Below, one piece after another: positions 6,513 through 61,183 of a stretch of DNA of 64,000 nucleotides. The notes beneath the pieces are model-generated. The model was not told the DNA's origin. It ran no database searches and saw only the letters and a list, made by a program, of their open reading frames with translations. The DNA is taken from positions 78,079 to 142,078 of the forward strand of contig JAFYYV010000001.1 in assembly GCA_017557405.1 (NCBI GenBank). Direction: 5' to 3'. Origin of the DNA: Prevotella sp. (GTDB lineage: Bacteria > Bacteroidota > Bacteroidia > Bacteroidales > Bacteroidaceae). Within the stretch, counting starts at the first letter, position 1, and the number at the start of each line of letters is the position of its first letter. The translations under genes and the position numbers were made by a program.

Positions 6513-6545
6513 AGGCAATCATTTCAGAACTGCCACAAAGCATCT

Positions 6546-6570
6546 CTGACGACACTAGAACTGTCGTCAG
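6546..6570. terminator. Strong hairpin after the M16 gene
   Basis: CTGACGACA (6546-6554) pairs perfectly with TGTCGTCAG (6562-6570) around a 7-nt loop. There is no clear T-run, so it may be a transcript 3'-end stabiliser rather than a classical terminator. Confidence 0.5.
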
Positions 6571-6597
6571 ATGTTATCAAGCCATTCCTCTTATAAA

Positions 6598-6685
6598 GTA
6601 AAATAGATTATTTTGCACGGTAAAATAGACTATTTTAGTCAGTAAAATAGACTATTTTGCTTTATGAAATAGATTATTTTACAAC
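6598..6685. repeat. 22-bp-period palindrome array A (4 units)
   Basis: Four units of exactly 22 bp, each holding a 17-bp palindrome around AAAATAGACTATTTT; units 2 and 3 are the most symmetric. It is one of four arrays in the window with the same period (others at 34427, 56029 and 61074). Confidence 0.85.
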
Positions 6686-6726
6686 ACCAAAGCTATGGTT
6701 TTATTCCATCATAGCTTACATCGATA

Positions 6727-6772
6727 CTTCTTACCTCTCACCTCTTACACCTTACCCCTTACCCCTCACCTC
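6727..6772 (+). repeat. Tandem TTAC/CTC word repeat
   Basis: Degenerate tandem words of the type CTTACCTCTCACCT. The same words recur inside the glycosyltransferase gene at 33813-33846. Confidence 0.65.
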
Positions 6773-6778
6773 TATACA

Positions 6779-30022: not shown

Positions 30023-32044
30023 ATGAGAAACGAAAAGCGAAAGAAATTCGGCATCCTCGACACGACGTTCGCCCCTGTGGCGGCACTTGTCTGGAATCTC
30101 CTGTTGGTCTTCCTGGTTTACTTCATTGCCCGCGTAGCCTACCTGTTGGTCAACCTCGGCCACTTCGCCGACGGACTCACGTTCAGCCATCTGCTGCGGC
30201 TTTTCAAGGGCGGTCTGGCCTTCGACACGTCGGCCATCATCTACACCAACGCCCTCTACATCGTCTTGATGCTCTTCCCCTTGTATCTGAAGGAGACGCG
30301 TGGCTACCAACGTTTCTGCAAATGGTTGTTCGTCATTGTCAACAGCCTGGCGTTCATCATCAACCTGGCCGACTCGGCCTATTTTCCTTATACCCTCCGA
30401 CGCACCACCACCAGCGTGTTCCGCGAGTTCGCGGGCGAGGACAACCTGGGCGGCATCTTCTTTGTCGAACTGCTCCACCACTGGTATCTCGTGCTGTTGG
30501 CCATCGTCGTCATCGCGGCCCTGTGCTGGCTTTATGCAAAACCTCGCATCCACAAGAGTTATTACAAGCAAGCCGGACAACGGTGGGCCTACTTTGCCGT
30601 GACGTTCATCGCGTTGCTGGCAGCCGTACCCTTGGCCATCGGCGGTTGTCGTGGCGGACTGGGACACGGAATACGCCCCATCACCATCAACAACGCCAAC
30701 CAATACGTCAACCGACCCACCGAGTGCGCCGTGGTGCTCAACACGCCGTTCGCTCTTCTGCGCACCATCGGCAAGAGCGTCTTTAATGTTCCCGACTATT
30801 ACGCCTCCATCGACGAGGCAGCCCGAGTCTTCTCTCCCATCCACCAACCCGCCGACTCCGTGCAGCGGAAGCCGCGCAATGTGGTCATACTGATTGTCGA
30901 GAGCTTCGGAAGCGAATACATCGGCGCCTTCAACAAGCATCTCGAGGGAGGGCGCTACAAGGGCTACACACCCCATCTCGATACGCTCATTGCCCATAGC
31001 CTCGTCTTCCGCCATTCGTTCTGCAACGGCCGCAAGAGCATCGACGGAATGCCCTCCGTGCTCTGTGGCATTCCCATGTTCGTAGAGCCGTTTGTGCTCA
31101 CGCCCTCTTCCATGAACACCTACACGGGCATTGGCGGACTGCTCGCTGCCGACGGCTACCAGACGGCGTTCTTCCACGGCGCCAACCGCGGTTCGATGGG
31201 CTTCATGGCGTTTGCCAACAAGACGGGGTTCCAACAGTATTACGGTCGCGAGGACTATGCCGCCGACAGCCGTTTCGGGGGCGACAAGGACTTCGACGGG
31301 CATTGGGGCATCTGGGACGAGCCGTTCCTGCAGTACTACTGCGCCAAGATGGGTGAGATGCGCCAGCCGTTCATGACCGCCGTGTTCACCGCCTCGTCCC
31401 ACCACCCCTTCAAGATTCCCGCCCAATATCAGAACGTCTATAAAGAAGAGCAGCTGCCCATCCACAAGTGCGTGCGCTACACCGACATGGCGCTCGGCCA
31501 GTTCTTCGAAGAGGCTGCCAAGCAACCGTGGTTCCGCAACACCATCTTCGTGCTCACCAACGACCACACCAACCAAAGCAATCACGACGAATACAAGAGC
31601 GATATCGGTGGATTCTGCGGACCTGTCATCATCTACGACCCCAGCGGCGAACTCGTCCAACCGGGTGTGAGCGACGCCGTCGCCCAGCAAATCGACATCG
31701 TGCCCACCGTGCTCGGCCTCATCGGCTACAAGAAGCCCTACCTCTCGTTCGGCATCGACCTGCTCAACACGCCCGCTCCCGCCACCTTCGCCGTGAACTA
31801 CCTCAACGGCGTCTATCAATACGTCAAATATGGCTACGTGCTCCAGTTCGACGGTACGAAATCGAAGGCCCTCTACTCCATCAACGACCCCCTGATGCGG
31901 CAGAATCTGCTTGGCAAGGTCGCCGTGCAACAGAAGATGGAACGCGAGCTCAAGGCCATCATCCAGCAGTATATGTATCGCATGGTCAACGACCAATTAA
32001 TGCCTTCTAACACCCAACACCCATCACCTAACACCCATGAGTAA
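30023..32044 (+). CDS. LtaS-like sulfatase-fold membrane transferase
   Basis: 673 residues: five or so N-terminal membrane helices (about 15-195), then an extracytoplasmic alkaline-phosphatase-superfamily domain. Metal and catalytic motifs are VESFGSE (about 290), nucleophile Ser in NGRKSIDG (about 335-342) and TNDHTN (about 512-517). The family transfers phosphoglycerol or phosphoethanolamine head groups. The last 13 residues (PSNTQHPSPNTHE) are encoded by a tandem word repeat that also carries the next start codon, giving an 8-nt overlap (ATGAGTAA). Confidence 0.88.
   Translation: MRNEKRKKFGILDTTFAPVAALVWNLLLVFLVYFIARVAYLLVNLGHFADGLTFSHLLRLFKGGLAFDTSAIIYTNALYIVLMLFPLYLKETRGYQRFCKWLFVIVNSLAFIINLADSAYFPYTLRRTTTSVFREFAGEDNLGGIFFVELLHHWYLVLLAIVVIAALCWLYAKPRIHKSYYKQAGQRWAYFAVTFIALLAAVPLAIGGCRGGLGHGIRPITINNANQYVNRPTECAVVLNTPFALLRTIGKSVFNVPDYYASIDEAARVFSPIHQPADSVQRKPRNVVILIVESFGSEYIGAFNKHLEGGRYKGYTPHLDTLIAHSLVFRHSFCNGRKSIDGMPSVLCGIPMFVEPFVLTPSSMNTYTGIGGLLAADGYQTAFFHGANRGSMGFMAFANKTGFQQYYGREDYAADSRFGGDKDFDGHWGIWDEPFLQYYCAKMGEMRQPFMTAVFTASSHHPFKIPAQYQNVYKEEQLPIHKCVRYTDMALGQFFEEAAKQPWFRNTIFVLTNDHTNQSNHDEYKSDIGGFCGPVIIYDPSGELVQPGVSDAVAQQIDIVPTVLGLIGYKKPYLSFGIDLLNTPAPATFAVNYLNGVYQYVKYGYVLQFDGTKSKALYSINDPLMRQNLLGKVAVQQKMERELKAIIQQYMYRMVNDQLMPSNTQHPSPNTHE
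32008..32038 (+). repeat. AACACCCA word array across a gene junction
   Basis: Tandem words TAACACCCA / ACACCCATC / CCTAACACCCAT. It encodes the tail of the upstream protein and the ATG of the downstream one. Confidence 0.75.
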
Positions 32045-33095: not shown

Positions 33096-34307
33096 ATGGT
33101 TCTCGGTTTCGACGCCAAGCGAATTGTTCGCAACGCAACAGGACTTGGCAGTTATTCACGCACCCTCATCAACTCGTTATCGGCAGCCGACGCCGACACG
33201 CAGTTCCTGCTGTATGCCCCCGATGAAGGGCGTGACGACCTGCGAAACCAGATCATCCAACGACCCAACGTCGCCTTCTCCTATTATACCTCCCCTACGG
33301 GGGGAGGACAGGTGGGGGCCCTTCATCCCTCATCCCTCATCCCTAAAAGCCTTAAAAAGGCTTTCTGGCGCTCCCGCGGCATCGTCAACGACCTGCAGCG
33401 CGATGGCGTCCAACTCTTCCACGGCCTGTCGGGAGAGCTGCCTGTAGGACTTCGCCGTGCCGGCATCCCCGGCATCGTCACCATCCACGACCTCATCTTC
33501 TTGCGCCACCCCGAATACTACAACCCCATCGACGTCTTCTTCTATCGCCGCAAGTTCCACGCCACCCTGCGCGAAGCCGAGCGCGTCGTGGCCATCTCCG
33601 AGTGCACCAAACGCGACATCCTTGCCTATAGCGACTTCCCCGAAGACCGCATCGACGTGGTCTATCAAAGTTGTGGCACCCGATTCCGTGAGGAAGCCGA
33701 CGCCGAGACGAAGGCCGAAGTGCGCAAACGCTACAACCTGCCCGAGCACTACATCCTCTCCGTAGGCACCATCGAACCGCGCAAGAACGTCCTCCTCGCA
33801 GGCAAAGCCCTAAAAACTCTTACCTCTTACCTCTTACCTCTTACCTCCGAAAAAGACCTCCACCTCGTGCTCGTAGGACGGCAGACCAGCTACGTGCGCA
33901 AAGAGATACTCCCCTACGCCGAGCGCAACGGCCTCACAGATCGCGTCCATCTGCTCAGCGACGTACCCAACCACCACCTGCCCGCCATCTACCAGCAAGC
34001 CCTCTGCTTCGTCTATCCCTCGCGCTACGAAGGATTCGGCATCCCCATCATCGAAGCCATCCAGAGCCGTCTCCCCGTCGTTGCCGCCACAGGGTCGTGC
34101 CTCGAAGAAGCGGGCGGTCCCGACTGCCTCTACGTCCATCCCGACGACGCCGAAGGCCTAGCCGAAGCCATCACCCGCTCCCTCCCCGGAGCCGAAGGCC
34201 GTGAAGAACGCATCCAGCGCAGCCTGGAATACATCCAACGCTTCGAAAACAACGACATCGCCCAACAAATGTTGACCGAATACGAGCGCTGCCTCCATCG
34301 TTCATGA
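33096..34307 (+). CDS. GT4 family glycosyltransferase with three repeat-derived inserts
   Basis: 403-residue GT-B glycosyltransferase, probably adding a sugar to a cell-surface glycolipid or polysaccharide. The donor-site motif PSRYEGFGIPIIEAI (about 308-322) and VGTIEPRKN (about 223-231) are typical of family 4. Two regions do not look native. Residues about 65-86 (SPTGGGQVGALHPSSLIP) come from a GC-rich palindrome plus CATCCCT repeats. Residues about 240-251 (TLTSYLLPLTS) come from CTTACCT repeats. Both fall in likely loops and keep frame. It begins 90 bp after the acyltransferase gene and ends the envelope block. Confidence 0.9.
   Translation: MVLGFDAKRIVRNATGLGSYSRTLINSLSAADADTQFLLYAPDEGRDDLRNQIIQRPNVAFSYYTSPTGGGQVGALHPSSLIPKSLKKAFWRSRGIVNDLQRDGVQLFHGLSGELPVGLRRAGIPGIVTIHDLIFLRHPEYYNPIDVFFYRRKFHATLREAERVVAISECTKRDILAYSDFPEDRIDVVYQSCGTRFREEADAETKAEVRKRYNLPEHYILSVGTIEPRKNVLLAGKALKTLTSYLLPLTSEKDLHLVLVGRQTSYVRKEILPYAERNGLTDRVHLLSDVPNHHLPAIYQQALCFVYPSRYEGFGIPIIEAIQSRLPVVAATGSCLEEAGGPDCLYVHPDDAEGLAEAITRSLPGAEGREERIQRSLEYIQRFENNDIAQQMLTEYERCLHRS
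33289..33348 (+). repeat. GC-rich palindrome (copy 2) plus CATCCCT tandem inside GT4
   Basis: 33289-33319 matches 5907-5938 almost base for base and is read in the same frame. It is followed at 33322-33348 by three CATCCCT words. Confidence 0.85.
33813..33846 (+). repeat. CTTACCT heptamer tandem inside GT4
   Basis: Four consecutive CTTACCT-type heptamers. A change of one copy would shift the frame. Confidence 0.8.
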
Positions 34308-34426
34308 CTTAAAAACTTGGTATTTTTATTTACAAAATCTTGTCGACTTTTCCGTTCAATCTAGAAAAGAAATACGAGTAAGGAAACGACTTTTTCGCTC
34401 CAATTTCCTCATTTCCCACAAGCAGA

Positions 34427-34536
34427 ATTGTCATATGTATCATTTGAGGCGCTTAGATGTGGCAAATGACACGCTTACTTATCGCATCTAACGAGCTCAT
34501 ATGCCACATCTGACCACCTCATTCCATAGCTTTGAC
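34427..34536. repeat. 22-bp-period palindrome array B (5 units)
   Basis: Five units of exactly 22 bp, each of the form 4 nt + T[CT]A + 11 nt + T[GA]A + C/G. Half-units of different repeats are complementary (GATGTGGCA in unit 2 with TGCCACATC in unit 4). Confidence 0.8.
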
Positions 34537-35056
34537 AATGCTGTAAAATGTAAAGAAAACAGAAACTGCTGATTATCAACGATTTCCAAGAACGCTCAAA
34601 ACTCGCGTATTTGCCCACGAGGAAGAATTTTTTCAAAACGTTGGCCTTCTCGTGGCACCAAAATTCGGAATTTTCTTGACAATAGAAGGAGGTGTTCCTA
34701 AGTAGTGGCTTTTACCAACAACTCCGTTACATTATGGTTACAAAAAGGTCTCACAATTGTTTCAATTGGTAGTGAAAAAGGGCAATTGTTACCGCCATTT
34801 TCTGCAACGAGACTGCCATTTGAGCACAAAATGCCTTTCAAATAGGGACTAAGTGTTGATTTTTTGAATCGCCTAAATGTGTGCAAAGTGTAGAGAAAAA
34901 CATCGAAACAAGCGTTTTTTACTTGTTTTTGCGGCTTTTTAGAGGAAAAATCAGCATGTTTTTGTCCTTCTTACAGGTTTTGAAACACAAGTGTCAAACC
35001 CTTGTGAATTCATATCTAATTGATAATCAGTATTTTAGATGAAAATCTAATGACTA
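34537..35056. other. Non-coding stretch
   Basis: No convincing gene. A hairpin CCACGAGgAAG/CTTCTCGTGG lies at about 34614-34653. A 62-codon minus-strand frame at 34698-34886 has no recognisable features and I do not call it. Confidence 0.4.
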
Positions 35057-35622: not shown

Positions 35623-38600
35623 ATGAAACGAAAAAACACTTTCCCTTCTTCGGGAAAAGAACGATTGCGGCATAGCCGGTGGCTAGGGCTGCTCATGACA
35701 TTTGTGCTACTGTTAGGCTTCAGTCAGACGGCTAAGGCTTTGGGCTACCAACGGACTTACGATGTTGCGAATATTACGCAGAACTGGGCTAAACCACATT
35801 TCCATTTCGACCTATGCTTAGGCGAGAACAATGGTGATTACAGTTACTGGGGATATTGGAATGGCGACCACAGATGGGTTCTTTACTTGGATGGCGTAGA
35901 GCTATGTACCTCAGCCAATCTCGGTCTGAACAAGGGCAATACCGCTCTTGGTAATGTTGCCAGTGACTATGACCAATGGTACACCCAATATACAGATGCC
36001 AACGGAAACTGGATTGGCGTCTGGAATCCCCATTGGGGAGTAGACAAACAGGTCTGGGCTTACATCTGTATTGTACCTAAATACAGCTTTATCGGCCAGC
36101 CTCACACGATAACGATCAAGGGCCGATGGCACGACAACGATAAAGACAAAGGCGTTATCACGATGACGGTGCCTTCATACAATGCTGCAATGAGTGTACC
36201 TGAAATGTCGCTGACACGTAGTAACGGCAAGATTAACTACAACGCTTCGTTGTCAGCTGTCGGCAACAACGCCTCTACATACACTTGGGGACTGACACTA
36301 TTCTATGAAAAACCGGGAAGTCAGTCATATAAAGAGCCTACAATGGAAAACAGCCTGGGTGGCTTAAAGACAACTGAATCGACAACGGAGATGTCCCTTT
36401 CCTACAATGCTGATAACTACAAGGCATACAAGGTCTATCCTCGTCTGTCGGCCAGTCGTAAATCAGCTCACGTTATCGCTTTCAACCCTTCTCGGTCGAC
36501 AATCGCTGATAACTTCTTCAAAGACTATGACGTTGTCAATGTTCCAGGCTACCCACGTGCCACTGGTTTGACTGCCGAAGGTCAGAAATGGGCAAAGACG
36601 GTCAATCTCTCTTGGAACAGCGAGGTTTACGACTCGAACAACTGCGACACGAACGGTAAATGGTATGTGTTCCGCAAGAACCTCAGCGACAACACCGTGG
36701 AGATTGTGGGCTCAGAGATCGCTTACAACACTCGCACTTTTACTGACAACAGCGCCACGCTGGATTATAGCACACCTTATACCTACTACGTGTGCTTCGT
36801 GCCCAATGGCTGGACGGTGAACAGCTGGACGGATGTCGATGGACTGTGGACCAGCAAAGACTTCACACTCAAGCGCGAATACCAATTCAAGGACTTCACG
36901 GCTGAAGGCAATGACGAAAACATTGCGCTGGACTGGAAATTAGAGTCGTTTAGCAATGCCAACAACAGCAACACATACGACGTGGTGCTGCAGCGCAGCG
37001 TGAACAACAACACGAGTTGGACGGACCTCTACACCCAGACCATCAACAGCCCAAGCGTTATTTCGGGCAATTATACAGACGAAGACGTCTCTAACCCTTG
37101 CACCAACTATTATTATCGACTGATGGTGCTGGCACAGGACACGACGTTCTACAGCAACGAGGAGGTGAGCAGCATCACCGGCGAGTCGAAGGTGACCAGC
37201 ATTGCTGCCAGCCGCGGCACTTATACTGGCCGCGTGCGCATTCAGTGGGAAGCAGAGCAATACGGAACCGCCGCAACCTACTACACCGTGAAACGCCGTC
37301 TGTATGGCAGCGGCGACGACCGCTGGGTAACGCTGTATACCACCAACGGCACAGCCTCCTCTTATAACTATCAAGACGACACCGCTCAGCCTGGCGACTA
37401 CTACGAGTATCAGGTCATTTCCGAGACAAAGTGCCAAGCGGACAATAGCAACGTACAGCACATAGTAACGACCGACGGATTCTGTATGGCCCGAGGTGTG
37501 GTGAGCGGCCGCATCAGTTACGGCACAGGTACCGCCGTCGAGGCTGCTCGGGTGGTACTGAAGCCCAGCAGCAGTTCCGGTACCGACGTACAGTCGTTCT
37601 ACTCGCTACATCTGCAGGGCATCGGCGATGGCGTTTCCTGGCCCGTACCTCAGGCTATAAAAACGACTTCGCCCTACACGATTCAGTACTTCCTGCGTCC
37701 AGAAACCGAAGATGCATCGCGCACTGCCAATGCCGTGTTGCTGGAGGAGAACGGCACCTCGACGGCGCTGCTTCAGCTGTCGACCTACGATGCCACGAAC
37801 CAGCGCTACCAGCTGATTCTCAACGGCAACGCTTCGGGCGTATATGTGAAGCCCAACGAATTCACGCAGATCACGCTCCGATATGACGGTTCGCAATACA
37901 CGCTGAGTACCTTCGACAGCCATCGTGCCACAGCCACTTACAGCGTTGCCGGACATGCCCTTTCGGCAGAGAGCCTGCATTTCGGCTACTCGTCTGATGT
38001 CAACAAACCACAGTTCAAGGGCTACTTAGACGAAATCCGCGTCTATTCGCGTGCCCTCCCCAACGAGGAAATTGTTTCCTATGCCGACCACACGCTGGCA
38101 GGTAACGAGGACGGGCTGGTGGCTTATATCCCGTTGGACGAAGGCGTTCAGGCACTGAAAAAGGCTTACGACTACTCGAAGACGGCAGGCGCTGCCAACG
38201 AGAACCACGGAGATCTGGCTGGTGGTTCTTTCGACTCCACCATTCCCGATAGCAATCAATTTGGCCTGCTGGGCTATACTGACAATCAGGGCAACTACGT
38301 GGTGCGTGGCGTGCCGTTCAATGGCGATGGTACCAACTACAGCGTGACACCCGTGATGAACAGCCACGAGTTCTCGCCAGAGAAGCAGAGCCGTTTCGTG
38401 AGTGCTTCGTCGCTGGTGCACAGCGGCGTTGACTTCACCGACATTTCATCATTTGAAGTTAGCGGCGTCATCCGCTATGCCGGCACGAACATCCCGGTGG
38501 ACAGTGTGCAGATATACGTGGACGGTCGTCAGGCTTCACGCAACAACGAGATTGTGGTGACTAACGACGAGGGCAAGTTCACCGTAGATGTGCCCATCGG

Positions 38601-41600
38601 TAAGCATTACATCAGCGTCTCAAAGGACGGCCATACCTTCGTCAAGGGAGGCCGCATTCCCGATGACCCGACCGGTCTGAACGAAACGACCTACGAGTTT
38701 GTCAAGGACGAGAGCGGCTTTGTGTTCTGGGACAACACATTGGTGCCTGTGGCAGGCCGCGTGGTTGGTGGTGCCATTGAGAGCGAAAAACTCTTAGGCT
38801 TTGCCGACATAGATGAGTACAAGAGCAAGAACACGATCGGACAGGCCCGCATTACGCTGGAGATTCCCGACACGCGTTATATGCTGAACGCCTACGAGGA
38901 GACGGAGGGCTTGGTGAGCAATGGTTTCAGACCTGTGACTGAGAACACGGCACTGACTTATCCGACTGGCGTGGCAGCTACGGGTGAAGGCTACCGCACG
39001 GGTGGTACCCAGGAAGACAATGCTAAGCGGGTGGTCATCACGACTGATGCCGAGACGGGCGATTTTGCCGTGCTGCTGCCGCCGCTGGATTACAAGGTGA
39101 CTTCGGTGCAGATGGTGAACAGCCAGGCCAACGAGGTATATAAGTTCAATCCCCAGCAATTGCCGCGCATCGACGCCAGTCACCCGGAAACGGTGCTACA
39201 GGATAGTATCCCGACGGAGGACGGCGGGTTCCGCTACTTCGACTATGTGGCCGCTATGAAATTGACGCTCCACACCGATCCCGTGCTCAGCGTCAGGCAG
39301 AAGAACGGATCGAAGAACCTGCTTCCCGAGGGCGTCTTTGGTGAAGCCATAGGCGAATACGAGATTCCCACCACTAAAGAGATGCGGACCGCGGACCTCT
39401 ATACTGTCAATACAAACGGCACTGTCAACTACACGTTCGACTATCCCATTTTCAAGGAAATGGCCTCCTATACGTTCGACATCGAAGGCTATGAGCTTTA
39501 CACGAACTACGATAAGGCTAATGACGACGAAGACCGCGTGACGAAGGTGCCACTCAAGGAAACCGTGGTGACTATCAGCAACCCCATGAGCGCAGGACAG
39601 GAAGTGCGCACTGCTGCGCCTGAGAACGGCGAGAACATTGGCGAGGTGGTAGATCTGAAGGAGAACCAACTTCAGCTCGACTCGCTGGGCAAGGCCACCT
39701 ACACGTGGACGGCTGGTCTGCCTTACACCTTGGGCAACTACACTCGTACCATGAACATGACCTATAACAATGGTGAGGGCGATTACAGCTGGCAGGGACT
39801 TGAGGCCATCATCTTCGGCGACCTGCCCAAGGGCAGCAACTTCACCACGAAGGGACCGTCGATAGTTGAGATGATTCTGCACGACCCATACGGCGACTCG
39901 TCGTTTGCCACTTGGGAAACCGGCACGGTGACCATCAGGAGCGAGGAAACCCTCAGAAGCGAGGACGACGACAAGACATTCTCGACGAATATGCACCTTG
40001 GTCCGAAATTGGAAATCGAGAACGGCTTGTTTACGCAGATTCAGACAGAAATTGAGGCTATTGCTGACTTCTCGGGCGGCTACCAGCTCACCAACACGTA
40101 TGACACCCTGAACGTCCACACAACGACCATCGAGGTCACACGCGCCATCAGCACAAGCAGCGATCCCGACATGGTGGGCGCCGATGCCGATATCTACATC
40201 GGAAAGAGTGTCAACTTGATCTATGGAAAGACGAGACAGGTGGGCCTGAAGGCCGATGTCAACGGCAATCCGTATGTTTCGGTGGACGATGCATGCTCGG
40301 TGAACGAGGAGTTATCCACGAATTTCGCCTTCACGCAATACCAGATTGAGAATGTACTGATTCCCGGTCTCGAACTGTTGCGCAACGACTATCTCATAAC
40401 GGTGCCCGACATGGAAACCGCCACGAACGAGACAGATAGTACCATCTATGTGACGAACCTATTGGAAACCGACGAGGACTTCGGTAAACCGGGCACCTAT
40501 AAGGTGCTCGCCAAGACTGAGGGACTCGACATGGTGAGCTACTACAATGACGAGATTCAAAGTTGGAAGAACACGATTCGCCAAAACGAGGAATACAAGG
40601 ACGGCCTTTTCAACGCCTCCGGAGCCAAAACTATGAAGAACGTCTCGTTCGGTGGCGGAGTGGAAATCAACGAGAGCACCACTAATTCCTATAACCACAT
40701 GCAGAACTGGACCCACTCACACACCTACTATGTGAACTATTCACACGATCTGGGTGGAACTTTCAATGGAGTGGGAGTCGACTTCTCGTATGAGTCGCAC
40801 TGCTCGAGCGCAAAATATAACGGCGGCAACGGATCCGATGGAAATACTGAAGAAGACGAAAACTTAGCAACGTTCAGCTACACGCTGGCTGATAGCGGCG
40901 CCGATGACTCGTTCTCGATGGACGTCTACGAAGCGCTCAACAACCACGGTCCCATCTTCCGGACGCGCGGTGGCCAAAGCTCGTGCCCGTATGAGGGACA
41001 GGAAGTGACAAAGTACTACAAACCCGGTACTGAGCTATCTGCAGCTACGATGCAAATCGAGAGACCTTCAATCGATTGCAAAACCACCCAATTGACTGGC
41101 GTTCCCACAGGCGGCAAGGCACAGTTCGAACTGTTGCTCGGAAACGAGTCTGATACAAATACTGACTGCTACTTCAACCTGATACCCGTGGACGGTGCCA
41201 ATCCAAAGGGTGCGCTGCTGAGCCTGCCCACAGGTCCCATTGGCAATGGACGTACCATTCTGGTGCCCTACGGTGAGGAAGTGAAGGTGATTCTGACATT
41301 GGAGCAAGGTAATCTCGATGTGACAGACTATGAGGACATTGAAATCGCTTTGACAAGTACCTGCCAGAATGACCCGACCTCTATCCATGGCGCTATCTCC
41401 AGCTCAATAAAACTGAGTGCGCACTTCGTGCCCGCCAGCACGCCGGTGGACATGACCATCGACAAGACGGTGATTAACACGAACAACAAGGATGAGGACC
41501 TGTCTATACGCGTGACAGGCTTCGACCGCAATTTCCAGGGACTGAAGCGCGTGGACATCCAGTACATGGCTCCGGGTGCTCAGTCGTGGAGTTTGCTGAA

Positions 41601-44600
41601 GAGCTACATACCGAACAATGACGTGCGTGAGAACAACAGCCAGGAGCTGCTGCCCGCGAACGGCGTGATCGAAGTGGCACTGAATATGAATTCGTCGAGC
41701 TGGTTGGACGGAACCTACCAGTTCCGTGCACAGAGCGCAGCTATCTATGGTGGCAATCCCGTGACTTCGGAGAGCGAAGTGCTGACGCTGGTGAAGGACG
41801 TGAACCGTCCGCAGCTGTTCGGTCTGGCTAGTCCGACCGATGGTGTGCTGAATGCCGACGACCTGGTCAGCGTGACCTTCAACGAGGACATCCAACAAGC
41901 ATTGCTGACGGACAACAACTTCGTGGTGAGTGGTGTGCTGAACGGTGCACAGGTGAAACACGACGTGGCGCTGTCGGCACAGAACACGGATTATGCCGCA
42001 AAGACCGAAGCCAACATCAACCTGGCACGCAAGGACTTCTCGGCCGACATGTGGGTGCGTGTGACCGATGCAGGTGACATATTCTGTCATGGTAACGGTG
42101 ACGAGAGATTCAAGCTGAGCGTCGACGACAACGACAAACTGGTGGTGACCATCGGCAACGAGAGCTACACCTCGACGAATGCCATCGAGAAGAACACGTG
42201 GACGTTCCTTGCCTTCACCTACAAATTCGAGAATGGCAACAGTCTGCTGAACGCACGTGCCGTTACGGATAACTACACCAGGGATATGTTCACGAACCAA
42301 GCCGTGGCCGACTATGCCGGCACTGGCGGTATCACACTGGGTAAGGGATTCTCGGGTGCCATCCACGAGTTGACACTTTGGGACAAGGCACGAGAGATGA
42401 ACGAGGCACAGGCGGAGATGCACATCACGAAGAAGCCTTCGACACCGAACCTCATCGGCTACTGGAAGATGGACGAGGGCAATGGCTTGACAGCCACCGA
42501 CTATGCACGCAACCGCCACCTGACTCTGCCGAACAACACGTGGTATCTGAACAACGACAACAAGGCTGTGAGCCTGAATGGCTCGAACAGCCTGAAGCTT
42601 GACATCACGGAATGCAGCGCACTCTCAACCGAAGACTATGCGATGGAGATGTGGTTCAAGGGCGCTAAGGCTGACAACACTACATCCAGCACGTTGTTCT
42701 CGGCTGCCGAGCAATCGGTGAGCATGGGCTTCAACAGCACAGGCGCGCTGACGCTGACAGCCAATGGCGAAGATACCGAGATCAGCAAGAACGACTACTT
42801 GGACAACACTTGGCACCACTTGGCACTGAACGTTCTGCACAGCGGAAACGCAACGGTCTATGTGGACGGCAAGGCTGTGAAGACCATGTCGGCATCGGCT
42901 GTCCCGGCACTGGAAGGAGCTTACCTGTATGTGGGTTCGAAGGGCGGCAACGCTTCTTACTTCAAGGGAACAGTGGACGAAATCCGCTTCTGGAAGGCTT
43001 CGATGACGGGCGACCTGCTGAGCAGCCAACGCACACAGCGTCTGACGGGTGAGGAAGGGGGACTTGTGGCTTACTACTCGTTCGAGAAACTCACTCGCGA
43101 TCCGAGTACAGGCATCATCTCGTCCGTAAGTACTGCTGCCGACCAGGACAAGGTCTACAACTATACAACCAAGGAGTATGCGCTGACCGACAAAGAGGCA
43201 ACGATGACCAGCGGCACGATAAGCTACACCGACGAGGCTCCGGCACTGAAGGTGAAGCCCGAGGCCACGAACGTGGATTTCACCTTCGTGTCCAACGAAC
43301 GCTCGATTATCATCAACCTTGACGCCGATCTTGACAGAGTGGAAGGAACGACCCTGACCTTCAACGTAAGAGGCGTGAAGGACATGAACGGCAACGAGTC
43401 GACAGAGATTGTTTGGACGGCATACGTGAAGAAAAACCAACTGCTCTGGCAGGGTGACAACGAGATAGCCATCGAGCAGCAGAACGGCGAGAGCACGACG
43501 TTCCAGGCCGTGATAGAGAACGAGAGCGGCTTGTCGGAGAACTGGACGCTGAGCGGACTGCCCACTTGGCTGACAGCCAGCCAGACAAGCGGCACGCTGC
43601 AGGCACAGTCGACGAAGACCATCACCTTCACCGTGGCCAGCAGCACCGCCATCGGCAAGTATGAGCAGACCATCTACCTGACAGGTAACAACAACATTGC
43701 AGAGCCGCTGACACTGAACCTGAAGGTGAAGGGCGAGGAGCCCGACTGGGCTGTGAACACGAGCGGATACCAGTACACGATGAGTATCGTAGGTCAGCTA
43801 CAGTTCCAGAACGTCATCTCGACCGACGAGGACGACATCGTGGCCGCCTTCAACGAGGCTGGCGACTGCGTAGGCGTTGCACGTCCGCAGTATGAGAGTG
43901 CATTCGACACCTACTTCACGATGATGACGGTCTATGGCAACAGTGACGACGATCTCCTGACCTTCAAGGCCTACGACGCTAGCACGGGCAAGGTATATCC
44001 CGTGGTGCAGACCGATGAGGACGTATACTTCGAGAAGGATACGAGGTTGGGCAAGCTCGCCACCCCGTTCATCTGGAACGTCACCGACAAAATTGAGCAG
44101 ACCATTGACCTGAAGAAGGGCTGGAACTGGATGTCGCTCTACGTGACTCCAGACGATATGAGTCCAGCTGGAGTGCTGGCAGACGCCCGCGCCATCCTCA
44201 CCCTGATCAACGGCCAGAACGGCTCGAGTGAGTTTGACTCGCAGATCGGATGGAGCGGCACGCTCACGACGATGGACAACGCATCAATGTACAAACTCCA
44301 GGCTACTGACGACGTAACGACCACTGTTGTGGGCTCACCCGCCGACGTAGCCGGTACTCAGATTACTGTGAAGAACGGCTTGACATGGATCGGCTATCCG
44401 CCATCGTTCACTCTCTCGCTGGCAGACGCCTTTGCAGGCCTCGACCCCGCGGATGATGACATGGTGAAGAACCAGAGCGGATTCGCCGTCTACAGCAGCG
44501 CGAACGCCAAATGGATTGGCACACTGACGGCAATGGAGCCTGGCATAGGCTATATATACAGCTCTGAGGCCACGGCCAACAAGACGTTCACCTATCCGTC

Positions 44601-45111
44601 GACGCCCCCAGCAGGCGGAATCGTCAACTCGAAGGCCTTCTTCGGCGAGGAGGAAGCCTATCACTTCCAGCCCGTCGCCGCCCAGAACTATCCCAGCAAC
44701 ATGGTGATGATAGGCCAGGTGGTGGAGAACGGCATGCCAGCATCGGGCATCGAGGTGGCCGCCTACGTGGGCGACGAATGCCGTGCTACGATTCGCTCGA
44801 ACAGCGAAGGAATGTTGTTCCTGCTCGTGCCGGGTGACAAGGTACTGCCGCTGACACTGCGCACCTACATCCACGGCGATGAGGTGACAATCGACCTGCC
44901 GCTGACATACCAGTCGGACAAGATGCTCGGCACGCTCAAGATGCCGATTAAGATTGACATCACCGACTTCGCCACTGGCATCAGTCGGATGGGTGAGGAT
45001 GCCGACGACGGCGAGTACTACGACCTGAGCGGCCGCAAGCTGAACCAGCGTCCGTACCAGCCGGGTGTCTACATCCGCAACGGCCAGAAGACAGTGGTCA
45101 AAGGCAAATAA
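35623..45111 (+). CDS. Giant multidomain surface protein with LamG domains (3162 residues)
   Basis: Very large exported protein, probably an adhesin or glycan-binding protein. A basic N-terminus and hydrophobic segment (about 20-40, ending TAKALG) form the signal. Regions by eye: fibronectin-III-like repeats (about 307-616), a LamG/concanavalin-like domain (about 653-843), a carboxypeptidase-regulatory-like beta domain (about 943-1010), a long unrecognised region, two more LamG domains (about 2127-2290 and 2337-2490), a BACON-like domain (about 2610-2705), and two paralogous modules near 2717-2812 and 3010-3110. The tail (YYDLSGRKL...GVYIRNGQKTVVKGK) is T9SS-like. No catalytic site is visible. 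A partner gene follows 12 bp downstream. Confidence 0.82.
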   Translation: MKRKNTFPSSGKERLRHSRWLGLLMTFVLLLGFSQTAKALGYQRTYDVANITQNWAKPHFHFDLCLGENNGDYSYWGYWNGDHRWVLYLDGVELCTSANLGLNKGNTALGNVASDYDQWYTQYTDANGNWIGVWNPHWGVDKQVWAYICIVPKYSFIGQPHTITIKGRWHDNDKDKGVITMTVPSYNAAMSVPEMSLTRSNGKINYNASLSAVGNNASTYTWGLTLFYEKPGSQSYKEPTMENSLGGLKTTESTTEMSLSYNADNYKAYKVYPRLSASRKSAHVIAFNPSRSTIADNFFKDYDVVNVPGYPRATGLTAEGQKWAKTVNLSWNSEVYDSNNCDTNGKWYVFRKNLSDNTVEIVGSEIAYNTRTFTDNSATLDYSTPYTYYVCFVPNGWTVNSWTDVDGLWTSKDFTLKREYQFKDFTAEGNDENIALDWKLESFSNANNSNTYDVVLQRSVNNNTSWTDLYTQTINSPSVISGNYTDEDVSNPCTNYYYRLMVLAQDTTFYSNEEVSSITGESKVTSIAASRGTYTGRVRIQWEAEQYGTAATYYTVKRRLYGSGDDRWVTLYTTNGTASSYNYQDDTAQPGDYYEYQVISETKCQADNSNVQHIVTTDGFCMARGVVSGRISYGTGTAVEAARVVLKPSSSSGTDVQSFYSLHLQGIGDGVSWPVPQAIKTTSPYTIQYFLRPETEDASRTANAVLLEENGTSTALLQLSTYDATNQRYQLILNGNASGVYVKPNEFTQITLRYDGSQYTLSTFDSHRATATYSVAGHALSAESLHFGYSSDVNKPQFKGYLDEIRVYSRALPNEEIVSYADHTLAGNEDGLVAYIPLDEGVQALKKAYDYSKTAGAANENHGDLAGGSFDSTIPDSNQFGLLGYTDNQGNYVVRGVPFNGDGTNYSVTPVMNSHEFSPEKQSRFVSASSLVHSGVDFTDISSFEVSGVIRYAGTNIPVDSVQIYVDGRQASRNNEIVVTNDEGKFTVDVPIGKHYISVSKDGHTFVKGGRIPDDPTGLNETTYEFVKDESGFVFWDNTLVPVAGRVVGGAIESEKLLGFADIDEYKSKNTIGQARITLEIPDTRYMLNAYEETEGLVSNGFRPVTENTALTYPTGVAATGEGYRTGGTQEDNAKRVVITTDAETGDFAVLLPPLDYKVTSVQMVNSQANEVYKFNPQQLPRIDASHPETVLQDSIPTEDGGFRYFDYVAAMKLTLHTDPVLSVRQKNGSKNLLPEGVFGEAIGEYEIPTTKEMRTADLYTVNTNGTVNYTFDYPIFKEMASYTFDIEGYELYTNYDKANDDEDRVTKVPLKETVVTISNPMSAGQEVRTAAPENGENIGEVVDLKENQLQLDSLGKATYTWTAGLPYTLGNYTRTMNMTYNNGEGDYSWQGLEAIIFGDLPKGSNFTTKGPSIVEMILHDPYGDSSFATWETGTVTIRSEETLRSEDDDKTFSTNMHLGPKLEIENGLFTQIQTEIEAIADFSGGYQLTNTYDTLNVHTTTIEVTRAISTSSDPDMVGADADIYIGKSVNLIYGKTRQVGLKADVNGNPYVSVDDACSVNEELSTNFAFTQYQIENVLIPGLELLRNDYLITVPDMETATNETDSTIYVTNLLETDEDFGKPGTYKVLAKTEGLDMVSYYNDEIQSWKNTIRQNEEYKDGLFNASGAKTMKNVSFGGGVEINESTTNSYNHMQNWTHSHTYYVNYSHDLGGTFNGVGVDFSYESHCSSAKYNGGNGSDGNTEEDENLATFSYTLADSGADDSFSMDVYEALNNHGPIFRTRGGQSSCPYEGQEVTKYYKPGTELSAATMQIERPSIDCKTTQLTGVPTGGKAQFELLLGNESDTNTDCYFNLIPVDGANPKGALLSLPTGPIGNGRTILVPYGEEVKVILTLEQGNLDVTDYEDIEIALTSTCQNDPTSIHGAISSSIKLSAHFVPASTPVDMTIDKTVINTNNKDEDLSIRVTGFDRNFQGLKRVDIQYMAPGAQSWSLLKSYIPNNDVRENNSQELLPANGVIEVALNMNSSSWLDGTYQFRAQSAAIYGGNPVTSESEVLTLVKDVNRPQLFGLASPTDGVLNADDLVSVTFNEDIQQALLTDNNFVVSGVLNGAQVKHDVALSAQNTDYAAKTEANINLARKDFSADMWVRVTDAGDIFCHGNGDERFKLSVDDNDKLVVTIGNESYTSTNAIEKNTWTFLAFTYKFENGNSLLNARAVTDNYTRDMFTNQAVADYAGTGGITLGKGFSGAIHELTLWDKAREMNEAQAEMHITKKPSTPNLIGYWKMDEGNGLTATDYARNRHLTLPNNTWYLNNDNKAVSLNGSNSLKLDITECSALSTEDYAMEMWFKGAKADNTTSSTLFSAAEQSVSMGFNSTGALTLTANGEDTEISKNDYLDNTWHHLALNVLHSGNATVYVDGKAVKTMSASAVPALEGAYLYVGSKGGNASYFKGTVDEIRFWKASMTGDLLSSQRTQRLTGEEGGLVAYYSFEKLTRDPSTGIISSVSTAADQDKVYNYTTKEYALTDKEATMTSGTISYTDEAPALKVKPEATNVDFTFVSNERSIIINLDADLDRVEGTTLTFNVRGVKDMNGNESTEIVWTAYVKKNQLLWQGDNEIAIEQQNGESTTFQAVIENESGLSENWTLSGLPTWLTASQTSGTLQAQSTKTITFTVASSTAIGKYEQTIYLTGNNNIAEPLTLNLKVKGEEPDWAVNTSGYQYTMSIVGQLQFQNVISTDEDDIVAAFNEAGDCVGVARPQYESAFDTYFTMMTVYGNSDDDLLTFKAYDASTGKVYPVVQTDEDVYFEKDTRLGKLATPFIWNVTDKIEQTIDLKKGWNWMSLYVTPDDMSPAGVLADARAILTLINGQNGSSEFDSQIGWSGTLTTMDNASMYKLQATDDVTTTVVGSPADVAGTQITVKNGLTWIGYPPSFTLSLADAFAGLDPADDDMVKNQSGFAVYSSANAKWIGTLTAMEPGIGYIYSSEATANKTFTYPSTPPAGGIVNSKAFFGEEEAYHFQPVAAQNYPSNMVMIGQVVENGMPASGIEVAAYVGDECRATIRSNSEGMLFLLVPGDKVLPLTLRTYIHGDEVTIDLPLTYQSDKMLGTLKMPIKIDITDFATGISRMGEDADDGEYYDLSGRKLNQRPYQPGVYIRNGQKTVVKGK

Positions 45112-56028: not shown

Positions 56029-56116
56029 TTTGTCAAAGACCACAAATGAGCTTGTCAAAGCTATGCAATGAGGAGGTCAAAGACCACAAATGACACGCTC
56101 AAAAGCCATCAATGAC
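56029..56116. repeat. 22-bp-period array C (4 units)
   Basis: Four units of exactly 22 bp, 4 nt + TCA + 11 nt + TGA + 1 nt, with TCAAAGACCACAAATGA in units 1 and 3. Palindromic symmetry is weaker than in array D, but register and flanking triplets are the same. Confidence 0.85.
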
Positions 56117-61073: not shown

Positions 61074-61183
61074 TTTGTCAAAGTGCCCCTTTGACCCGCT
61101 CAAAGCGATGGTTTGACGCTCTAAAAGCTATGCTTTGAGGCGGTCAAAGCTATGCTTTCATCCTGTCAAAGCTATGCTTTCAC
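61074..61183. repeat. 22-bp-period palindrome array D (5 units)
   Basis: Five units of exactly 22 bp (starts 61074, 61096, 61118, 61140, 61162), 4 nt + TCA + 11 nt + TGA or TCA + 1 nt, built on TCAAAGCTATGCTTTGA. It lies in the 745-bp gap between frdC and the P-loop/CYTH gene; the rest of the gap shows nothing coding. Confidence 0.88.

Follow-up and report, generated by a model that had tools for sequence, protein, structure and literature searches.

What kind of element is the series of short, evenly phased, imperfect palindromes that lies between two divergent genes in this stretch of rumen Prevotella DNA, and is its regular geometry read by a protein? The series, here called array D (61078..61182, plus strand of the window, i.e., the whole stretch of 64,000 nucleotides that was analyzed), consists of five 17-bp units starting at positions 61078, 61100, 61122, 61144, and 61166 with 5-bp linkers between them, which bears out the exact 22-bp steps claimed in a preliminary description of this DNA. 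It is flanked by a plus-strand AAA_28 gene and by a minus-strand gene adjoining sdhA/sdhB, which had no match in Pfam and, judged by its position, probably encodes the sdh membrane subunit. The wording given in that description, TCA-N11-TGA (or TCA) around a common core, is mostly right: four of the five units start with TCA and three end with TGA (units 4 and 5 end with TCA), but unit 3 starts with TAA, and the core AAGCTATGCTT is found in three of the five units only. In each unit, 6-7 of the 8 arm positions agree with the unit's own reverse complement.

Three more arrays of the same period had been claimed for the window, and all were recovered. Period-22 scores of at least 36/60 were found near positions 6598 (48), 34441 (38), 56026 (37), and 61101 (49, the scoring position of array D), and when the window was scanned at periods 15-39 this threshold was passed by period 22 alone. 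Simulated sequences (60 of 64 kb each) reached at most 35 at period 22, their maxima averaging 29; the simulation used the overall dinucleotide composition of the window while the gaps are AT-richer, and the control is the set of other periods in the real sequence. Array A (6533..6725, plus strand) is composite, with four AT-rich units of the TAAAATAGACTATTTTA type (6599-6681) flanked on both sides by degenerate TCA-type units, the register being 22 bp throughout. Array B (56033..56115, plus strand) has four units (56033, 56055, 56077, and 56099) of the TCAAAGACCACAAATGA / TCAAAGCTATGCAATGA type and a counterpart in a sister species (L171, near 16360). Array C (34431..34535, plus strand), with five mixed-word units (34431, 34453, 34475, 34497, and 34519), lies within a MITE-like element that we call type 2 (34332..34683, plus strand), the conserved left and right ends of which are G000:C44:112410-112463 and 112736-112761. 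The common geometry is a 17-bp pseudo-palindromic unit plus a 5-bp linker in a strict 22-bp register, mostly with four to six units. The window also encodes a very large predicted protein of 3074 aa with three Laminin_G_3 stretches (35887-45111), and carries 7-bp tandem repeats of TACCTCT (6725-6773), AACACCC (32009-32037), TCATCCC (33323-33344), and CTCTTAC (33817-33847).

Abundance of period-22 arrays

Scans of this genome, of the sister species, and of other Prevotella sequence exclude that 22-bp periodic matches merely occur at the frequency expected by chance. In a set of 462,078 bases of the own genome chosen regardless of arrays (the window, the remainder of contig C44 as far as 222078, and the first 240 kb of C16), we found 20 period-22 arrays, 16 of them outside the window, versus four at period 21, one at period 20, and none at period 23; each of the remaining periods of 10-59 had at most six, the harmonic 44 (18) excepted. 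The sister species (record L088, RUG11493, with 97% protein identity in the flanking AAA gene) had 50 period-22 arrays in 786,137 bases, compared with 11 at period 21, 10 at period 14, none at period 20, and one at period 23. By proportion, this extrapolates to approximately 150 arrays per genome in the own and 230 in the sister species. The array D region used as a query gave at least 48 matches in its own genome (40 of 162 first-look candidates were scored).

These arrays are intergenic in 66 of 70 cases (own and sister together), in convergent (16), divergent (16), and tandem (34) gaps, and occupy 18 of the 115 own and 46 of the 186 sister gaps of at least 150 bp. Their orientation in tandem gaps is unbiased with respect to the genes (seven with, nine against). 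Period-21 arrays (4 own, 11 sister) are intergenic by gene calls in just 4 of 15 cases.

Unit words and symmetry

The words of the own genome fall into three families: TCA-N11-TGA, which has a common vocabulary, TAAAATAGACTATTTTA, and GTACATGCCACATGTAC. The statistics on unit number, palindromy, and half-word pairing include 32 of 53 own loci that were picked for matching array D, and the word statistics therefore lean to D. With this composition, the numbers of TCA-type arrays with 3, 4, 5, 6, 7, and 8 units were 7, 7, 20, 15, 4, and 1 in the own genome, and with 3, 4, 5, 6, and 7 units 5, 8, 15, 15, and 1 in the sister species. Unit number is hence narrow, with a mode of 5 in the own and of 5-6 in the sister species, and exceeds six in 6 of 98 arrays. 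The outer flanks of TCA-type arrays start with CAA in 80 of 196 cases, versus 109 of 792 internal linker views (every linker being counted from both sides).

The preliminary description had also proposed selection on symmetry, and here the evidence is divided. The array consensus was significantly palindromic (p<0.05 versus shuffles) in 27% of 52 own arrays, 24% of 50 sister arrays, and 21% of 29 arrays from other genomes of the genus, versus 4% of 163 control arrays with periods other than 22; most arrays, on the other side, are imperfect palindromes, and some half-words are not seen paired with themselves. Among 150 perfect TCA/TGA units of the own genome, AAG is paired with TTG in 38, with TTC in 27, and with TTT in 16, the pairs with TTG or TTC being in excess, and TTG, TTC, and TTT are never paired with themselves. 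There is a single TTC-TTG unit in the own genome, and in the sister species TTT-TTT occurs in 1 of 130 units where 6.9 would be expected. To judge from these words, it looks as though two different half-site readers were needed. Within own AT units, the two halves vary by eye mostly independently, and we claim no arm covariation within species. The units of one own array are barely more alike than those of different arrays, with 5.46/11 identical interior positions within versus 4.60/11 between arrays.

Composite arrays with two words in one register

The strongest indication of selection on spacing, which the preliminary description had suggested as well, comes from single arrays that hold differently worded units in one register. 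We compared 15 different AT-type cores, eight from the own and seven from the sister species, leaving out L179, the core of which is identical to that of the own L368. Twelve of them have four units and three have three, with an additional AT-like unit adjacent to cores L169 and L178, such that their true cores may exceed this count. The average layout is approximately three TCA-type units, three to four core units of another word, and again approximately three TCA-type units: mean anchor matches in the flanks are 4.27, 3.90, and 3.80 at offsets 1-3 from the core, then 2.40, 2.00, and 1.67. Loci vary singly, and some flanks are weak. In phase with the core (shift 0), TCA..TGA anchors match in 3.99 of 6 positions on average, with at least five in 31 and at least four in 60 of the 90 flank units, while at the 21 other shifts means are 0.83-2.08 and at least five matches occur in 0-1 of 90 units per shift. 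Conservation in these flanks is dyad-symmetric (A3 92%, A5 78%, T13 72%, T15 93%), a pattern that by eye also fits the AT and GTAC words. Pairwise identity between composite flanks is 0.55 at the anchors and 0.36 in the interior, compared with 0.26 in the far flanks used as control. The four GTA-N11-TAC cores (one own, three sister) have 4, 4, 5, and 4 units, and the TCA anchors in their flanks are weak (mean 2.67/6 in register versus 1.12-2.08 elsewhere).

Because AT and TCA units are worded differently, duplication of one unit does not explain their common register. It could have been inherited from one ancestral composite, with the interiors of the flank units decayed and the anchors kept. 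Slippage of a single word can be discarded as a full explanation of the arrays, given the mixed words in one register, the narrow unit number, and the slight excess of similarity within arrays.

Arrays in orthologous gaps

Comparison with the sister species shows how the geometry is kept while words change. In an unbiased set of 77 orthologous gaps (array threshold 34), arrays were present in both species in 6, in the sister only in 7, in the own only in 2, and in neither in 62; at the control periods 20, 21, 23, and 24, no gap had arrays in both. Restricting the set to gaps that reach 120 bp in the own as well as in the sister species leaves 25, with corresponding numbers of 6, 4, 2, and 13, a modest excess of shared arrays (p 0.028). 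The expectation that periodicity persists in orthologous gaps is thus upheld for six gaps, as against zero at control periods, and fails for the nine (2 + 7) in which one species alone has an array. In six orthologous arrays picked by hand, 387 of 425 unit positions (91%) were identical versus 69 of 95 linker positions (73%), with 1212 of 1502 in the aligned flanks; the unit-linker difference has a Fisher p of 7e-6. Because neither the units of one array nor the loci of one species are independent of each other, these p-values overstate the evidence. Linkers were fully identical in two of the six arrays.

Array A and its counterpart L183:6658 align unit by unit, and position 8 has changed in 4/4 units and position 10 in 2/4; between L014:3312 and L171, the same positions have changed in 2/3 and 3/3 units, by eye. 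Half-sites of the AT type differ between the species, with 44 G(C) and 18 A(T) in the own genome versus 0 and 60 in the sister. The own locus L368 is the exception, having the sister-like word in its four units, since an identical array sits in both species at unrelated places. Some gaps hold different word families in the two species: TCA-type in L012 versus GTAC-type in L182, and TCA-type with the flank of a second MITE-like element (type 1) in L051 versus AT-type in L178. The array D gap itself has 22-bp arrays in both species with unlike words (sister score 35), and between L014:9701 and L170 one unit has been gained or lost. Constant geometry with changing words, the central claim of the preliminary description, holds across arrays, orthologous gaps, and species.

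Association with mobile elements

That description had offered, as an alternative to a bound protein, a replicating repeat that diversifies, and this is right in part, as some arrays sit in dispersed MITE-like elements. Type 1 is present in 12 copies that have the two ends (TGACAAAATGTAA...TTACATTTTGTCA) and measure 164-165 bp; its flank matches 21 own and 8 sister sites and has no match in G012, G006, G014, or G016. Type 2 has the ends TTGTCAA...TTGACAA, for which we aligned 13 end pairs (12 from the sister); its ends match at least 40 sister sites per end and 30 (left) and 8 (right) own sites, with no match in G012 or G006. At two loci where the own gap measures 85 and 91 bp, the sister species has type-2 elements, and its gaps are 584 and 503 bp long, respectively. 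In the type-2 pairs compared, a few hundred bases separate the two ends, and no long autonomous copy was found among the matches listed. We saw no clean target-site duplication, the empty-site alignments being too diverged, and no enclosing transposase gene in a search of the transposase family Y1. Dispersed copies with terminal inverted repeats, as in MITEs, are thus found for type 1 and lacking for arrays without common flanks; many arrays have unique flanks with nothing in common between loci.

Whole arrays have also been copied. The AT core of L368 (own, L368:1459-1586) and that of L179 (sister, L179:2136-2263) are letter-identical over 83 bp, on opposite strands, and 92% identical over 128 bp, beyond which there is no similarity in the 3.1 kb compared, the loci being unrelated. 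Such an identity between sequences points to recent copying or transfer.

Distribution across Prevotella and its relatives

Across 561 kb from further genomes of the genus, 22 is the top intergenic period, with 17 arrays versus at most 9 at any other (9 each at periods 14, 21, and 35), 44 aside. Intergenic DNA of 79 loci from relatives (513 kb) gave 11 arrays at period 22 versus at most 6 elsewhere, again 44 aside; when coding DNA was included (80 loci), period 21 (13) exceeded period 22 (11). The pattern is uneven between genomes: periods 14 and 21 (5 each) outnumber 22 (3) in the 40 kb of G006, and there is no period-22 array in the 39 kb of G010. Each species has its own words, such as TAACATGCGTCATGTTA in G016, TAAAAGGGCTGCTTTTG in G012, CAAAACCATAGGTTTTG in G006, TGAAAGACGGTCTTTCG in L094, and CTAAACCATCGGTTTAG in L149. 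Period-22 arrays are also found in Segatella maculosa, S. paludivivens, and a relative (L141:4924-5100, L160:733-860, and L156:797-900). With their own arrays as queries, the genomes of the cultured S. maculosa DSM 19339 and S. paludivivens DSM 17968 gave 14 matches (several overlapping) and 24 matches, respectively; in these Segatella arrays a palindrome is not obvious, while the period is kept and many relatives occur elsewhere in the same genomes.

No period-22 array was found in 370 kb (37 kb of it non-ORF) from other families of the order; given the two rates found for the genus, the chance of this is 0.0002 and 0.002. These families have few tandem arrays whatever the period (three in total at periods 12 to 49), so that the missing period 22 partly reflects a general lack of intergenic tandem arrays. 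In the other genomes of the genus, multiples of 7 rank after 22 and its harmonic 44 among intergenic periods, and there may be a second, heptad-based kind of repeat in the genus.

Possible role of the arrays and alternative explanations

We favor the view that the arrays are a family of strictly 22-bp-phased intergenic elements, spread by copying, that serve as multi-site platforms for a predicted dimeric DNA-binding protein, and give this a probability of roughly 0.47. Each unit would be the site of one dimer, its subunits contacting half-sites (ANA and TNT) that lie roughly one helical turn from each other; with units spaced by two turns, successive dimers would come to lie on one face of the DNA, where they could bind side by side. 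The arrays would then form small nucleoprotein platforms, perhaps in nucleoid organisation, or alternatively be the binding sites of a transposase, or a domesticated one, that spreads them. Words would change as the bound protein or proteins acquire new specificities. This reading is favored by the dyad half-sites, the two-turn spacing, the higher conservation of units than of linkers, the missing orientation relative to genes, and the missing signal of an array-level hairpin. Weighing against it are a palindromy that is significant in only about one quarter of the arrays and not obvious in some Segatella arrays, the full identity of linkers in two of the six orthologous arrays compared, and whole-array copying, which is real and through which composites may have their register by descent. 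Of the earlier suggestion that spacing and symmetry are read by a protein binding in tandem, spacing is supported more firmly than before and symmetry less so, and the protein itself is a prediction.

The arrays might instead be, as has been proposed for BrickBuilt, selfish minisatellites within, or as, MITE-like elements, whose register and words were copied along with them and which no host protein uses. This is a serious possibility, if short of probable. The two-ended type-1 copies, the abundant type-2 ends of the sister species, the long sister gaps filled by type-2 elements, and the single-unit gain or loss all speak for it, and the AT core that is identical at unrelated loci of two species strengthens it at the expense of the platform reading. 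However, many arrays lack common flanks, neither the mixed wording in one register nor the narrow unit number is easily explained by it, orthologous gaps can hold different word families, and target-site duplications and an enclosing transposase gene (family Y1 searched) were not seen. Movement as REP-like elements, through single-strand hairpins handled by a RAYT (Y1) transposase, would agree with the palindromic units and with the one Y1_Tnp (RAYT-like) gene of the own genome (L208:1216-2271, G000:C16 near 298144), which encodes 351 aa and has a weak match barely above the cut-off (24.9 versus 23 bits). By eye, though, the flanks of this gene (L208:700-1260 and 2240-2400) hold no 22-bp array, the commonest words are without a constant tag (GTAG or CGTC), and many units make poor hairpins; with no array adjoining the sole Y1_Tnp gene, we reject this origin as very unlikely.

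A function at the RNA level, as terminators, stabilisers, or processing signals, is equally remote in our judgment: of the three arrays folded, D and A fold better than shuffles (z -4.1 and -6.2), but B barely does (z -1.9), arrays are unoriented relative to genes and occupy divergent and convergent gaps alike, Rfam at gathering scores gave no match in the window, and complementarity between mirror-image linkers (1.56/5 versus 1.50/5 for others) rejects an array-level hairpin. Sequence-directed curvature, by which A/T tracts alternating at approximately 11 bp would act mechanically, is improbable too; the AT and TCAAAG words do have AAA and TTT about 11 bp apart, yet GTACATGCCACATGTAC and TCAGATG-type words hold the period without A-tracts. 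As to other candidates, a regulon operator was dismissed after the genes at eight AT-type loci (7 own, 1 in G006; ORFs, first 70 residues) showed no common theme, and a CRISPR array because the 5-bp linkers are drawn from recurring words and are not unique spacers. There was no sign of a plasmid or phage origin, array D having no match in plasmid and phage collections, in which rumen Prevotella plasmids are possibly few. TCAAAGCTATGCAATGA occurs once each in two viral contigs, and many viral contigs are among the matches listed for the AT pattern, which is too loose to interpret.

The platform and selfish readings may both apply in succession, the arrays being first copied and afterward put to use, or the transposase itself may be what binds them. 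In its fullest form, the platform reading would describe a Prevotella-specific set of 150-230 phased platforms per genome, including composites of approximately 3+4+3 units that mix words, read by fast-evolving, co-evolving proteins, with species-specific wording and a fixed geometry; this fuller picture we consider rather unlikely. If it held, the fixed geometry and species-specific words, together with parallel changes at matching unit positions of two orthologous loci, would record cis-trans co-evolution between a DNA-binding protein and its sites. For finding an array-binding protein in a major genus of the rumen and gut, the composites offer a testable bait.

Comparison with known repeat families

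Plasmid iterons and the centromere repeats of par systems are helically phased tandem sites for an oligomeric binder, found as single plasmid loci beside the gene of the protein. The arrays described here are, in contrast, scattered over a chromosome. They share with REP, BIME, and REPIN sequences the abundance of short intergenic palindromes and differ, as far as these are covered in the available text, in their fixed 22-bp head-to-tail phasing and in that neither a GTAG/CGTC tag nor a link to RAYT was seen (PMC3733652). Searches of the open-access literature yielded no account of such arrays.

PINSR is a 188-bp intergenic repeat of Prevotella intermedia and P. nigrescens with 177-184 copies per genome, approximately three quarters of the PINSR-containing regions being common to two strains (PMC4755523). 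It resembles the arrays in its genus, intergenic position, similar kind of copy number, and restriction to a lineage, and is set apart, by its description in the available text, as a single consensus of 188 bp that lacks terminal inverted repeats and for which no 22-bp register is described (PMC4755523). BrickBuilt, a 23-nt repeat inside a MITE of Porphyromonas gingivalis, has 19 copies in one strain, each with 1 to 22.8 repeats and IS5-like ends GAGACCTTTGCA; the available text also mentions 22-nt repeats in strain W83, with locations absent (PMC4596501). Like our arrays, BrickBuilt is a spacer-free short tandem repeat, dispersed and intergenic in Bacteroidales, with unit gain and loss between strains, and part of the array copies have a common leader and tail as well. 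The differences lie in the repeat length (23 nt versus 22 bp, with no period-23 array in the own and one in the sister species), in the ends, which by eye are unlike those of types 1 and 2, and in the number and make-up of the arrays, since here approximately 150-230 per genome, mostly of 4-6 units, include several word families per register and many arrays without element flanks. The statement that no named family has these properties therefore stands, to the extent of the available texts, for a family with a fixed 22-bp period and changing words, and is to be qualified in that BrickBuilt and PINSR are repeats of a closely related kind.
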